A DNA stretch of 57,673 bases from Lachnospiraceae bacterium. GTDB lineage: Bacteria > Bacillota > Clostridia > Lachnospirales > Lachnospiraceae. This document shows, in pieces, positions 15,690 through 21,239 of the stretch. How positions within the stretch are numbered: the first letter of the stretch is position 1; each line of letters begins with the position of its first letter. The stretch lies in the NCBI GenBank assembly GCA_017539565.1, contig JAFYCS010000104.1, positions 1-57,673 of the forward strand. Reading direction: 5' to 3'. The notes below the pieces were generated by a model. The model made no database searches and was not told where the DNA came from. It was given only the letters and a program-made list of their open reading frames with translations. A program made the translations under genes and the position numbers.

Positions 15690-16523
15690 TTGCCTATGAA
15701 AACGCAAAATCACCGTACACATAAGATACTTGATAAGCATCCTGTATTCGGGAGCATTTTGGCAACAGGGATATTTGTTGCGCTTTTCTTTATTATCATG
15801 TCGCTTTCAGATGCTGTATTTGAGACTTTTCTGCCGGAAGATCTTTGCAGCGGACCGGCTATTCTGACAGCGTTTATCGTCACGAATCTGCTTTTTATGT
15901 GGTGGTTCAGAGGCGAGACCAGGGGCCTGTGCATTGGCGGGGATATCAGAGGCGCGGCCGTTGTAGCGGCTCTTTATGTTGCGTACTGGATCATATCGGT
16001 CGCACTGGGTATCATCATCTCCGGTGACAGATATGGCCTTCCGAAACTTGCTGATATCAATAATGCCGTGGGAGCGGGCTTTATGGAGGAGATGATGATC
16101 AGGGGATTTATCCTGATGCTGCTTTTCAGAAAGAAGCGTACGCCACGCATGATCATCATATCGATGATAGTGACTTCTGTGATATTTGCGCTGCTTCACG
16201 CGACCAATCTGCTTATGGGAGCAGACCCCGGAGCGACTGTTATGCAGGTAGCAAGCAGCGCGGCTACCGGATTTTGCTTCGCTATGCTTTATGGCTGTTC
16301 AGGGAATATCCTTCCGGCAGCGGTGATGCACACCCTGCATGATATTATCGCTTTTTCTGAGCTTGATGCCACCGAAGGCGGCGTGATGGTAGCAGGCGTC
16401 GACGCCGGTTCCTGGGTCAACCTGCTTCTGTGCTATATCTTAGCACTGATCTGCTTTTTCTATCTGAAAAGAGAAGATGTAATGAAGCGGACTATTGATA
16501 TATGGAATAAAAAGTGGAGCTGA
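15690..16523 (+). CDS. CPBP family intramembrane metalloprotease
   Basis: 277 residues with about seven to eight hydrophobic segments. CPBP (Abi/CAAX-type) proteases carry EExxxR and two His motifs within the membrane: here GFMEEMMIRG (about residues 131-140), FALLHATN and VMHTLHD. Roles in the family range from prenyl-protein and pheromone processing to bacteriocin immunity; substrate unknown here. The TTG at 15690 lies 11 bases after CGGAG and is preferred over the ATG two codons on. It is convergent with the radical SAM gene, 14 bp away. Confidence 0.85.
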   Translation: MPMKTQNHRTHKILDKHPVFGSILATGIFVALFFIIMSLSDAVFETFLPEDLCSGPAILTAFIVTNLLFMWWFRGETRGLCIGGDIRGAAVVAALYVAYWIISVALGIIISGDRYGLPKLADINNAVGAGFMEEMMIRGFILMLLFRKKRTPRMIIISMIVTSVIFALLHATNLLMGADPGATVMQVASSAATGFCFAMLYGCSGNILPAAVMHTLHDIIAFSELDATEGGVMVAGVDAGSWVNLLLCYILALICFFYLKREDVMKRTIDIWNKKWS

Positions 16524-16537
16524 TTTTTGGCACCAAC

Positions 16538-17488
16538 CTATACATAGCAGTTCACGTCCCGCGCATCCAGCCGGCCGGTCTGCGCGTAAGTCACGCAGCG
16601 GGCGCCGCCGGCACATTTATAGAAATGCGGACACTGCACGCAATCCCTGGGGAATACGGGCTCTGCCAGCTTCTTCATTATCTCGTTTGACTTAAGCCAC
16701 GTCTTTAGATCGCTGACATCCGCGATGTTTCCTATCACAAACGGCAGCCGCCGGCATGCCATCATATCGCCATTTGCAAGGATGATGAGCAACCTCTTTC
16801 CGGCGCTGCATTCATAGCTGCAGCTGCCCTCCGGGATCCACTGGAGCGCCCGGCTGTTGCTGATAAAGGGATGGCGTCTGGCCAGACCGGCCGCCGCCTT
16901 AGATATTTCCTTGAATTGCGAAGTGGTTACATACTGTTCCGGATCGTCTGTGACCACCCGGTCCCACCAGAGTTTATCGACTTTATGGCGCGCGCAGACC
17001 GCGGCCACTTTCTTAAATTCCTTATAATTCCCCTGCATCACGGTGAAGGACACCAGCACCCGCACGCCCTGTTTTTTCAGGCAGTCTATGCCGCGTAGCG
17101 CCCTTTTGAAGTTGCCTTCACCGCGTATGGCGTCGTGCACTTTTTCGGATCCGTCCAGGCTCACCTGCACGAAAACGGGTTTGAGCTTCGCAATCGCTTC
17201 TGCGCACGCATCATCGATCAGCGTCCCGTTTGTCAGTATTCCCAGGCGGATCCCGCGTCTGCGTATATCCGCGGCTATCTTAAAGAAGTCCGGATGGAGC
17301 AGCGGTTCGCCGCCTGTCAGGTTGATCTGTCCCTCAAAGCCTTCCGCGCGGATGTACTCATCGTACTTGTCAAGCGTTTCTGCCATTTCCGCATAGGGCA
17401 TCACGCAGCTGTAGTCCTCTTGGTAACAGTGGCGGCACTTAAGGTTGCACGCGTGCGTGATATGCCATTGCAGGTAATGCCGCAGCAT
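16538..17488 (-). CDS. Radical SAM/SPASM domain protein, possible peptide maturase
   Basis: 316 residues from the ATG at 17488, two bases after the stop of the upstream gene; GGAGG lies in that gene's end. The radical SAM cluster motif is Cys14, Cys18, Cys21 (ACNLKCRHCY), followed by LTGGEPLLHPDF (SAM-binding GGEP) and LGILTNGTLI. The C-terminal SPASM-type region has many cysteines (SCSYEC, ACRRLP, CVQCPHFYKCAGGARC, NCYV), able to hold auxiliary Fe-S clusters. Such enzymes modify ribosomal peptides or protein tails. Its only operon partner is a secreted/membrane protein ending in SSC repeats, which is the obvious candidate substrate (inference). Confidence 0.85.
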   Translation of the reverse strand: MLRHYLQWHITHACNLKCRHCYQEDYSCVMPYAEMAETLDKYDEYIRAEGFEGQINLTGGEPLLHPDFFKIAADIRRRGIRLGILTNGTLIDDACAEAIAKLKPVFVQVSLDGSEKVHDAIRGEGNFKRALRGIDCLKKQGVRVLVSFTVMQGNYKEFKKVAAVCARHKVDKLWWDRVVTDDPEQYVTTSQFKEISKAAAGLARRHPFISNSRALQWIPEGSCSYECSAGKRLLIILANGDMMACRRLPFVIGNIADVSDLKTWLKSNEIMKKLAEPVFPRDCVQCPHFYKCAGGARCVTYAQTGRLDARDVNCYV

Positions 17489-17490
17489 AC

Positions 17491-19080
17491 TCAGTCGGCA
17501 CCTCCGCCGCCGCAGCTGGAGCATGACGAACAGCTGGAGCATGAGGATCCGCCCGACGATGAGGAGGAAGATGACTGTGCTGCATGGTACGCATCGCAGG
17601 ACTTTAAGGCAGTGCTGTCGATGGGATAGAAGAAGTATGCCAGCCGGTCGTTTGCATCATAGTTGTCACCGTCGTCACCATCATCCGCTTCGGTAATATT
17701 GTAGATGACGCGGCCGGTGGACATGATCATGAACACTTCGTAGTGCGACAGCCTTCCCGCCAGCATCCGGTTGGCGCTGATGGGATCCTGGGCGTATTTG
17801 GCCGCGATCAGGCAGGTGGTCCAGTCCTTCTTGTACTGCTTTAATTCCTTGCCCTGGAGCTTTCCGGAGACGGCCGTATTAAAGAGCGAGTTCAGCGTAG
17901 TGCAGAAGCCGCCGAACATATCAAAGCGTACCTGGATCGTATCCGTCAGCGTTGTTTTGGAGAAGCTGCCGGGCGTATCCGCCGCATACTGCGCAAGAAA
18001 CATGACCATGCTCCTGTCTGCCTCATTGACGCAGCGGTCATTGAATATCGCGAAATGATCGTTGTCCGGTGCAACTTCGATCACGCCCCTGCATATCATG
18101 TCTGAAAAATAAGTGATGAAGAGCTTGGAATAGTGGATAGTGCTGGCACCGTAAGCAAATTCGAAGGGATCCAGCACGCCGGTCCATCCGGCGATGATGT
18201 TGTGTATATAATTCGGATCGTTTTGGACCGCTGCCTTGATGCGTTTGTCCCTGACGATCCCCCAGACGATCAGCACAACGAGAGCTATGGGGCACAGTAT
18301 GACTATAATGATCGGGATGATCAGTAAGCCCAGGCCGCCGCCGCTGCCTTCTTCTTCGTTGGCGTTAGTGAGGTCGTCGGCGGTGATAGGCACTGCGTTT
18401 GAAAACTCTACACCGTCGATCCTTACCTTTACCTTATACATGCCGCTGCAGGATGAAGCGCTGATATTTGTCACATTGCCGCCGCCGCTTACTTCATCAT
18501 AATGCGAAGCGTAGCGCAGATCGTTTACTGCGCCCTCCGGTGTCGTCACCGTCAGATTAACTTTTTTAACGGTCTGCGGGAAGTTGGCGCCGATCAGCCT
18601 GAAAGTGAACAGATAATAAGCGTCATCCACACACTTGACCGCCTCTTTGATGCGGTAGCCGATCTCGTAGGTGCGGGTCACGTTCTGGCTGGATTTGTAG
18701 CAGTCAACCTGGGCACCCATCGATGACTTCTCAAGATGAAAGGTATAATCCGGCCTGCCTTCCGTATCGTCCGTATATGTGCAGTCAGTGCCGTCGATGC
18801 GCACGTATACGCTGTCCGTATACAGATTCACTGTGTCTTCATTCCCGGCATTCATTACGATATCTTTATAAAACCTGGTAAAAGACCCGCTCTCAAAGCA
18901 TATCGTCCATTTTTCCACGATATCCGCGGTACCGTCGCTGTTTACATTCACCGTAAACTCCGCCGCCTGCACGCTGTAACTTGACGCATGCGCCTTGATC
19001 GGCTGCATCACGCCCGTAAGTATGAACATCAGAAGGAATGTCCATGCCAGCAGCTGCTTCATCTTTCTCATATTTTTCAT
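17491..19080 (-). CDS. DUF2207-like membrane protein with a Ser/Cys/Gly-rich tail
   Basis: 529 residues. Signal peptide to about Ala32 (LLMFILTGVMQPIKAHA), an extracytoplasmic DUF2207-like domain (about 36-245, SVQAAEFTVNVNSDGTADIVEKW type start), a Gly-rich joint, one transmembrane segment (about 260-285) and a cytoplasmic part to about 500. The end is unusual: seven Ser, GG, then four SSC triplets with Cys at 514, 517, 520 and 523, GGGG and AD. Other DUF2207 proteins often end in Gly/Ser-rich tails; regular Cys is not usual as far as I know. The downstream radical SAM gene begins two bases after the stop. The promoter at 19119-19148 and GGAGGGGG site support the start. Confidence 0.8.
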   Translation of the reverse strand: MKNMRKMKQLLAWTFLLMFILTGVMQPIKAHASSYSVQAAEFTVNVNSDGTADIVEKWTICFESGSFTRFYKDIVMNAGNEDTVNLYTDSVYVRIDGTDCTYTDDTEGRPDYTFHLEKSSMGAQVDCYKSSQNVTRTYEIGYRIKEAVKCVDDAYYLFTFRLIGANFPQTVKKVNLTVTTPEGAVNDLRYASHYDEVSGGGNVTNISASSCSGMYKVKVRIDGVEFSNAVPITADDLTNANEEEGSGGGLGLLIIPIIIVILCPIALVVLIVWGIVRDKRIKAAVQNDPNYIHNIIAGWTGVLDPFEFAYGASTIHYSKLFITYFSDMICRGVIEVAPDNDHFAIFNDRCVNEADRSMVMFLAQYAADTPGSFSKTTLTDTIQVRFDMFGGFCTTLNSLFNTAVSGKLQGKELKQYKKDWTTCLIAAKYAQDPISANRMLAGRLSHYEVFMIMSTGRVIYNITEADDGDDGDNYDANDRLAYFFYPIDSTALKSCDAYHAAQSSSSSSSGGSSCSSCSSCSSCGGGGAD

Positions 19081-20515: not shown

Positions 20516-20591
20516 TTTATCGAAAAACATTAAAAAGTAGTTGACAGACGATAAGATCTGCAGTAATATGCATTTATCGATAAACATTAAA
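20516..20591 (+). promoter_or_regulatory. Promoter flanked by two copies of a 19-bp operator-like repeat
   Basis: TTGACA (20541-20546), 17-bp spacer, TAATAT (20564-20569). TTTATCGATAAACATTAAA lies at 20573-20591, over the start site, and an 18/19 match lies at 20516-20534, upstream of -35. The core TTTATCGATAAA is palindromic. The operon's last gene is a YozG-type repressor, a likely ligand. Confidence 0.7.
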
Positions 20592-20627
20592 TATTTAATC
20601 TTAACTAGAAAGGCAAGGTATAAAGAA

Positions 20628-21239
20628 ATGGAAATAGCAGTACAGAAACTCATCAACAGCGCAGTGCAGATAGTATTATTCACACTGATCCCCTTCATCT
20701 GGTGGCTCATCACCGCAAGGAAAGAAACCGGGTTCTTCAAGTGGATCGGCTTAAAAGGCATAAAAAGTGCTAAGGAAAACAAGACCCTGTTCTGGGTCAT
20801 CGGCATCCTGATCTGCTTCACGGGATTATCAGCATACATGCTCTACAGCATGCGCGGCATCGAGATGGCAACATCCGAGTTCTCCGGCCTTGGTGCAGCA
20901 GCGATCCCCGCAGTCCTGATCTACGCGATACTCAACACTTCGCTCCCCGAGGAGATAGTGTTCAGGGGCTTCCTTTTAAAGAGGATCTCCGCGAAGTTCG
21001 GCTTCCACGCCGGAAACATCGTACAGGCAGTCATCTTCGGCATCATGCACGGCGTAATGTTCTTCTCATACACCGGTGTCGTAAAGGCAATCGTGATCAC
21101 GCTTTTTACCGGAGTGATCGGATGGCTCATGGGCTTCGTTAACGAAAAGAAAGCAGAGGGTTCCCTGATCCCGAGCTGGTGCATCCATGCGGTTGCAAAC
21201 ATCTTCTCAGGACTCTGCGCGGCATTCATGATATTTTAA
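20628..21239 (+). CDS. CPBP family intramembrane metalloprotease (second copy)
   Basis: 203 residues from the ATG at 20628, chosen because AAGGCAAGG precedes it and it lies downstream of the promoter; an in-frame start at 20541 overlaps the -35 box. About six membrane segments. Family residues: SLPEEIVFRG (EExxxR), FGIMHGVM and CIHAVAN. First gene of a three-gene operon with a DUF2975 membrane protein (12-bp gap) and a YozG-like repressor, so it may act on, or be regulated with, that membrane protein. Confidence 0.85.
   Translation: MEIAVQKLINSAVQIVLFTLIPFIWWLITARKETGFFKWIGLKGIKSAKENKTLFWVIGILICFTGLSAYMLYSMRGIEMATSEFSGLGAAAIPAVLIYAILNTSLPEEIVFRGFLLKRISAKFGFHAGNIVQAVIFGIMHGVMFFSYTGVVKAIVITLFTGVIGWLMGFVNEKKAEGSLIPSWCIHAVANIFSGLCAAFMIF

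Follow-up and report, generated by a model that had tools for sequence, protein, structure and literature searches.

The window analysed here, a stretch of 57,673 nucleotides covering contig JAFYCS010000104.1 of a Lachnospiraceae bacterium (GCA_017539565.1), carries two adjoining genes on its reverse strand: one encodes a DUF2207 membrane protein of 529 residues with a Cys-rich C-terminal tail, the presumed substrate (P0001, 17491..19080), and the other a radical S-adenosylmethionine (SAM)/SPASM enzyme of 316 residues (16538..17488), whose ATG stands two bases past the DUF2207 stop codon. The first-pass annotation of this DNA had described the tail as Ser7-GG-(SSC)4-GGGG-AD, noted the two-base spacing, and proposed that the enzyme acts on the tail; the tail pattern and the spacing are both confirmed in the sequence. 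The tail, SSSSSSSGGSSCSSCSSCSSCGGGGAD, occupies residues 503-529 (17494..17574, on the same strand as all features of the pair given below), places its Cys at residues 514, 517, 520, and 523, and is predicted from sequence, hydropathy, and a structural model to be cytoplasmic and disordered.

The DUF2207 N-terminal domain (PF09972) spans residues 38-198 of P0001 (18487..18969; 55.9 bits against a Pfam cut-off of 24.4, E 8.3e-15) and is predicted to lie outside the membrane. It is preceded by an N-terminal hydrophobic helix or signal peptide region (residues 2-24, 19009..19077) that was assigned from hydropathy and the AlphaFold model, and it is followed by a membrane helix (residues 254-272, 18265..18321). 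Hydropathy alone marks residues 7-25, a weak segment (1.62), and residues 254-272. The model, which is of moderate confidence (mean predicted local distance difference test score, pLDDT, 69.6) and was built on 11 sequences, gives in order a helix (2-24), a beta-rich part (36-232), a helix (256-287), and a mostly helical region, with pLDDT below 50 for residues 497-529. The 15 residues following segment 254-272 carry a net charge of +3, which points to a cytoplasmic location for the tail. Hydropathy of 24 partner proteins found four segments with a like charge pattern in many of the others, though some segments were weak, extra, or undetected. The topology matches that described for the DUF2207 protein SMU.243 of S. 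mutans, which has a large intracellular C-terminus that includes a Gly/Ser stretch (PMC10457818). No copy of DUF2207_C (PF20990) was matched by Pfam in P0001 or in the partners at loci L009, L012, and L013, leaving the window clade without a recognisable copy of this domain, and no NCBIfam model matched P0001 at E 0.01.

The enzyme scores 95.6 bits against Pfam Radical_SAM and 21.2 bits against SPASM, slightly below the cut-off of 21.5. Its CxxxCxxC cluster motif (Cys 14, 18, and 21; 17426..17449) is kept in all 53 aligned sequences. The canonical SPASM seven-Cys motif reads CX9-15GX4C ... CX2CX5CX3C ... C, and the same alignment identifies SPASM-type motifs at Cys 227, 245, 283, 286, 292, 298, and 314 (16547..16810). 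The first half, CX9-15GX4C, is present in 51 of the 53 enzymes, CX2CX5CX3C occurs in none, and a variant CX2CX5CX5C with a further C is found in 52, the remaining enzyme being cut short. The residue after the GX4C Cys, R246, is an invariant Arg (53/53), and no Cys beyond the ten of these motifs is conserved across the alignment. Because the radical SAM domain starts at residue 10, the enzyme has no room for an N-terminal recognition element (RRE) of the kind found in maturases of ribosomally synthesised and post-translationally modified peptides (RiPPs); none was found, and the enzyme model aligns to CteB only from CteB residue 92 on. The best structural match is the anaerobic sulfatase-maturating enzyme (anSME), but since anSME, CteB, ChlB, SkfB, and SuiB fall within about two Z units of each other, structural neighbours cannot settle the chemistry. 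The first-pass annotation had named SCIFF systems among its analogies; of the 84 NCBIfam families matching the enzyme, the best 25 contain no SCIFF model.

When P0001 was run by BLAST against 200 family genomes, its sole match was itself, and the enzyme was taken as query instead. Four of 397 genomes of the same family matched at E 1e-40 or better, the window's own included, and in each of the other three (L010, L025, and L034) a Cys-tailed protein lies directly upstream. A collection of 84,980 GTDB species genomes was then scanned with two short peptide patterns drawn from the four-sequence enzyme alignment, a selection in which the tail had no role and which orthologues without both patterns (having neither one) escape. 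Of the 61 loci obtained, 52 (L009-L059 and L069) were treated as orthologues, with 35-78% identity to the window enzyme; these include L010, L025, and L034 again as well as the near-duplicate pairs L049/L052, L055/L056, and L024/L027. The other nine (L060-L068), at 30% identity or less, are more distant radical SAM enzymes and have no Cys-tailed neighbour. A Cys/Ser/Gly-tailed protein neighbours the enzyme in all 52 orthologous loci, which bears out the pairing of enzyme and Cys tail noted in the window as genuine and conserved. The pairing occurs in some gut and rumen bacteria, in Lachnospiraceae, Oscillospiraceae, Erysipelotrichaceae, Bacilli, and others as well as one metagenome-assembled genome (MAG) from the Spirochaetes, and two of the records that carry it, Pseudobutyrivibrio sp. 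YE44 (L025) and OR37 (L029), bear no MAG label.

Among the 50 partners scanned with Pfam (those of L026 and L039 being cut), DUF2207 was found in 45, DUF2207_C in 45, and TPM in one. The commonest tail is GGGCSSCGGGCSSCGGGGSW, while the window clade together with L012 and L013 ends in (SSC)n-GGGGAD or near it. The gene order is reversed in L012 and L013, where the partner lies downstream of the enzyme. Two partners carry the same kind of tail on another domain, at one locus each: a TPM protein encoded by the second gene downstream of the enzyme (L011), and, among the partners run against NCBIfam, a TIGR04222 protein directly upstream (L058; 124 bits against a cut-off of 43). The latter also gives a weak DUF2207_C match of 27.9 bits (cut-off 33), a hint that TIGR04222 and DUF2207 may be related families. 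Thus the common factor is the tail, not the partner domain. At L011 (6004-8596), the enzyme is separated from the Cys-tailed TPM protein by a 573-residue protein with zinc-ribbon matches.

Two kinds of counter-example had been named for the pairing, Cys tails without the enzyme and orthologues beside unrelated substrates. Of the second kind there was none among the 52 loci, given the shared tail of the TPM and TIGR04222 partners. The first kind was sought in 75 control DUF2207 proteins. Fourteen came from a sample of 120 genomes of the family, in which 15 had DUF2207 including the window's and all others were taken; the remaining 61 were picked among the matches listed for an order of Bacilli (193 genomes, 151 positive for DUF2207), seven chosen as paralogues and the rest spread along the list, with known Cys-tail places omitted. 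No control (74 of the 75 counted as complete) has a Cys within its Gly/Ser tail, and two have a single Cys in the last 45 residues that lies ahead of the tail. Open reading frames (ORFs) of at least 150 residues in the stretches fetched around the 75 controls gave no match to the enzyme profile at E 1e-5. In the 14 family controls the C-terminus is a Gly/Ser tail, for example GGGSSGGGSGGGGGGSW, and 38 of 74 controls end in SW, the same ending as in the large Cys-tailed clade (GGGGSW). The Cys tail accordingly looks like an ordinary DUF2207 tail with Cys inserted at regular places. The seven paralogues come from five genomes that also carry the Cys-tailed pair, so these genomes hold their own natural controls. 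Fisher's test for 52/0 against 0/75 gives 7e-37, a value that ignores the shared descent of the loci and hence overstates the association. A tail of the Cys/Gly/Ser kind was found in one of 115 window ORFs of at least 100 residues; the 74 control loci (499 ORFs) and the nine loci L060-L068 (129 ORFs) had none.

A search that started from the tail gave a concordant result. The DNA pattern for CSSCGGGG matched 10 of 394 family genomes (four loci of this enzyme, one TPM/TIGR04340 locus, and five others) and gave nine matches in the 193 Bacilli-order genomes (seven genuine tails and two chance ORFs), with the enzyme motif beginning about 50 bases past the start of the matched pattern in each of these seven. 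Overall, 12 of the 19 matches are genuine tails, and all 12 directly adjoin a radical SAM gene, which in one case belongs to TIGR04340 and has a TPM protein as its partner. Other matches were set aside on reading as small Cys/Gly proteins starting MSDLAATN (G192, G046, and G222) or short chance ORFs (G194, G214, G452, and G560). The small proteins at L070, L074, and L076 in three genomes begin MSDLAATNCG, are 83 residues long in two cases, show hydrophobic patches, and have ends rich in Cys and Gly.

In a FastTree phylogeny of 119 DUF2207 proteins, each trimmed of its final 50 residues, the Cys-tailed proteins fall in two clades split by Cys-free ones, so that two changes are required, and the starred branches force both. 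Forty of the 45 Cys-tailed rows fall in one clade; the exact place of the window clade is unsure, since long branches converge close to it. Excluded from this tree were L058 and L011 for their other domains, the near-duplicates L024, L049, and L056, and three loci cut by contig ends (L017, L026, and L039). A tree of the enzymes places the TPM-linked one with the window clade at support 99 and the TIGR04222-linked one with the large other clade at support 96, each on a long branch. What the enzyme follows is thus the tail and not the partner domain. Within the tail, the last two Cys are kept in all 45 tails counted even though both Cys codons are in use, and therefore selection acts on the protein. 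That count took 45 of the 52 tails, with L011, L058, L024, L049, and L056 excluded by name and two not picked up.

The neighbourhood of the pair was compared in 49 loci (L024, L049, and L056 being left out) using ORFs of at least 90 residues. Only three groups are frequent: the enzyme (48, the L013 copy having been displaced in ORF selection by a longer overlapping ORF), the partner (41, plus four in a second cluster; the clusters exclude L011, L026, L039, and L058), and LemA (18). The next cluster is a transporter-type ABC/FtsX gene that lies within about 5 kb of the pair in six of the 49 loci (L032, L033, L046, L050, L053, and L054), with Pfam checked in L046. After it come groups of five and four, including a sortase in four loci and a macro domain in four; one member per neighbour cluster was scanned. 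No protease, exporter, immunity, or precursor gene is regular among these neighbours, and no small gene of at least 90 residues recurs; seven smaller Cys-bearing ORFs lying outside other genes in six of the 49 loci are mutually unrelated. The absence of a regular exporter, peptidase, or precursor favours a modified resident protein over a released peptide. In the window itself, the pair has an Rce1-like (CAAX-type) membrane protease gene on each side (15690-16523 and 20541-21239, both on the forward strand); such genes are not among the scanned neighbour clusters of four or more loci.

We hypothesize that these two genes form a system in which the radical SAM/SPASM enzyme modifies the Cys tail of a membrane protein that keeps its tail, most likely by forming thioethers, and we regard this as the probable explanation of the pair. 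Once inserted in the membrane, the DUF2207 protein would expose its DUF2207 domain to the outside and keep the C-terminal region, with the flexible Ser/Gly/Cys tail, in the cytoplasm, where the coupled enzyme, without an RRE extension, would act on the tail Cys. Cys sulfur would most likely be joined to a carbon of a neighbouring Ser or Gly as a thioether, converting a floppy tail into a bridged one that would remain attached to the membrane protein, given that neither a peptidase nor an exporter is a regular neighbour. The parts of this proposal differ in firmness. The anatomy of the pair, its association, and the conservation of that association are established. The enzyme very probably modifies the tail, because in sampled relatives that lack the enzyme a similar tail is devoid of Cys. 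That the tail is the substrate, and is cytoplasmic, we infer from the features above. The thioether is a guess by analogy, and it is likewise a guess that the modified tail may tune an envelope module built on DUF2207 and often linked to LemA.

The alternative nearest to this proposal keeps the modification of the tail and changes its product to formylglycine made from Cys or Ser, an epimerised residue, or another crosslink; we consider it possible, though the lesser prospect. Formylglycine would fit the structural likeness to anSME, an enzyme that modifies Cys or Ser in a protein to give this product. In anSME, however, an Asp that serves as general base follows the GX4C Cys, whereas the family described here has the invariant Arg R246 at this position. 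Epimerases use a critical Cys (PMC8326336), and no conserved Cys exists in this enzyme outside its ten motif Cys. It is improbable, in our view, that the tail instead binds a metal or an iron-sulfur cluster or serves in redox reactions, with the radical SAM protein merely co-transcribed or directed at another substrate. CxxC repeats are common metal ligands, and the modification of the tail is itself a proposal; yet tail Cys occur together with the enzyme whichever of the three partner domains is present and in either gene order, and the regular neighbours include no alternative substrate.

A Ser/Gly/Cys stretch beside a modifying enzyme also resembles a conventional RiPP, in which the membrane protein would act as a giant leader and its tail as a core peptide destined for cleavage and export. 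The Rce1-like protease genes flanking the window pair and the ABC/FtsX-type gene in six loci could supply cleavage and export. Against this, the protease, exporter, and immunity genes of such a pathway are not regular in the 49 loci (ABC in six, sortase in four), and the GGGGSW end of the large clade is of the same type as in the Cys-free controls, so it is not specific to a peptide core; we think this very unlikely. Still less credible is hitch-hiking, whereby a single ancestral pair was passed on through descent and transfer and the association has no functional meaning. The placement of 40 of the 45 Cys-tailed DUF2207 rows in one clade would agree with it, but the tail is found in two DUF2207 clades and on TPM and TIGR04222 partners, the gene order is reversed in L012 and L013, and the Cys are kept while codons vary.

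Several observations weigh against a modified, resident, cytoplasmic tail as the explanation of the pair. Through shared descent, the 52 loci are not 52 independent events, and the TPM and TIGR04222 partners are single loci, both on long branches of the enzyme tree. An enzyme profile search at E 1e-60 of the same 193 genomes gave eight matches, the seven tail genomes and G541 (C19, L212), where a C-terminal enzyme part (profile positions 187-324 of 325, with one stop and no radical SAM half) lies where no tail gene was seen in the adjoining sequence; this fragment could be a decayed copy or an assembly artefact. The ABC/FtsX-type genes make export possible in some loci, simple hydropathy is ambiguous on the tail side of the TIGR04222 partner, and the best structural match, anSME, makes formylglycine, not thioethers. 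From the literature, a sizeable share of Cys-bearing TIGR04222 loci have no gene for a multinuclear non-heme iron-dependent oxidative enzyme (MNIO), and Cys-bearing TIGR04222 loci are reported that have no known modifying enzyme, so that Cys tails may exist without a partner enzyme, and the same paper places TIGR04222 tails in the periplasm (PMC12452194). The first-pass proposal thus stands as to the association of enzyme and tail, while the G541 fragment and the published TIGR04222 orphans count against it.

The closest parallel in print is a 2025 proposal in which MNIO enzymes act on TIGR04222 membrane proteins that end in Ser/Gly/Cys tails (PMC12452194). In both systems, the gene for a Cys-modifying RiPP-type enzyme stands next to that of a membrane protein whose C-terminus is a low-complexity Ser/Gly/Cys tail, and TIGR04222 is itself the partner in L058; in the window, by contrast, the pair consists of a radical SAM/SPASM enzyme and DUF2207, with a tail predicted to be cytoplasmic. 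One third of TIGR04222-bearing genomes are described as lacking an MNIO, and the main text of that paper, on which the distribution of TIGR04222 given here rests, names neither DUF2207 nor TPM (PMC12452194). The window's genome has no match to MNIO (PF05114).

A second comparison is with TIGR04340 (ACGX), the second-best NCBIfam model for the window enzyme at 140.1 bits, although this lies far under the 400-bit cut-off. Of the 14 places seen to exceed that cut-off, 13 have a small ORF for an ACGX-repeat peptide in the fetched stretch, whereas no window ORF of at least 30 residues has two ACG within 40 residues. In G109 (L078/L080), a TPM protein with the tail SSCSSCSSSSCSSCSSGGSSCSSCGGGGGHSF is followed directly by a TIGR04340 radical SAM gene, with no ACGX-repeat peptide ORF in the fetched stretch, and then by a small gene that we take to be ferredoxin-like. 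This is a separate case of Cys-tail/radical SAM pairing with another enzyme subfamily. The over-cut-off TIGR04340 enzymes at L113, L131-L141, and L144 each have a small ACGX-repeat peptide ORF, and several have downstream genes that are presumably nitroreductase-like and ferredoxin-type.

Among characterized enzymes, anSME resembles the window enzyme in structure, but the latter scores 75.4 bits against a TIGR03942 cut-off of 349.45, and it differs in its SPASM spacing (CX5C) and in the Arg that replaces Asp; no sulfatase was matched among the neighbours scanned. Maturases of sactipeptides and ranthipeptides such as SkfB and CteB, which carry an N-terminal RRE (PMC8326336), act on short leader-bearing precursors, in contrast to the 529-residue membrane protein of the window. 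Ordinary DUF2207 proteins such as SMU.243 share the domain and topology, while the 75 sampled controls have neither tail Cys nor a nearby enzyme. We found no paper that joins DUF2207 or ACGX with radical SAM enzymes in a search that left most subscription journals outside. Within that search, the earlier remark that no described system of this exact kind was known held for DUF2207 with radical SAM, and it is qualified by the near parallel of MNIO-TIGR04222 (PMC12452194) and the curated TIGR04340 ACGX family.

More generally, RiPP radical SAM/SPASM maturases are known mostly from small peptides that are cut and then exported, and DUF2207/LemA proteins are widespread and poorly understood. If the tail of a resident membrane protein is indeed a radical SAM/SPASM substrate, this would extend RiPP chemistry to membrane protein function, and the pair would offer a biochemical handle on DUF2207/LemA proteins. 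We lean slightly towards a broader principle, whereby the Gly/Ser tails of a guild of membrane proteins (DUF2207, TPM, and TIGR04222) have repeatedly gained Cys and been handed to Cys-modifying enzymes of RiPP type, becoming attached working parts. The enzymes in question would be the present radical SAM family and TIGR04340, together with the MNIOs already proposed in the literature.

Apart from the pair, the window contains many copies of the palindrome GTGCCWGGCAC. Between 2357 and 31700 there are 55 matches with at most one mismatch against 1.0 expected, a count that takes both strands so that most sites count twice, and the copies are often paired and intergenic. A Y1 transposase-like gene (PF01797; 22743-23363, forward strand) lies amid these palindromes, which look like repetitive extragenic palindromic (REP) elements with their own transposase.

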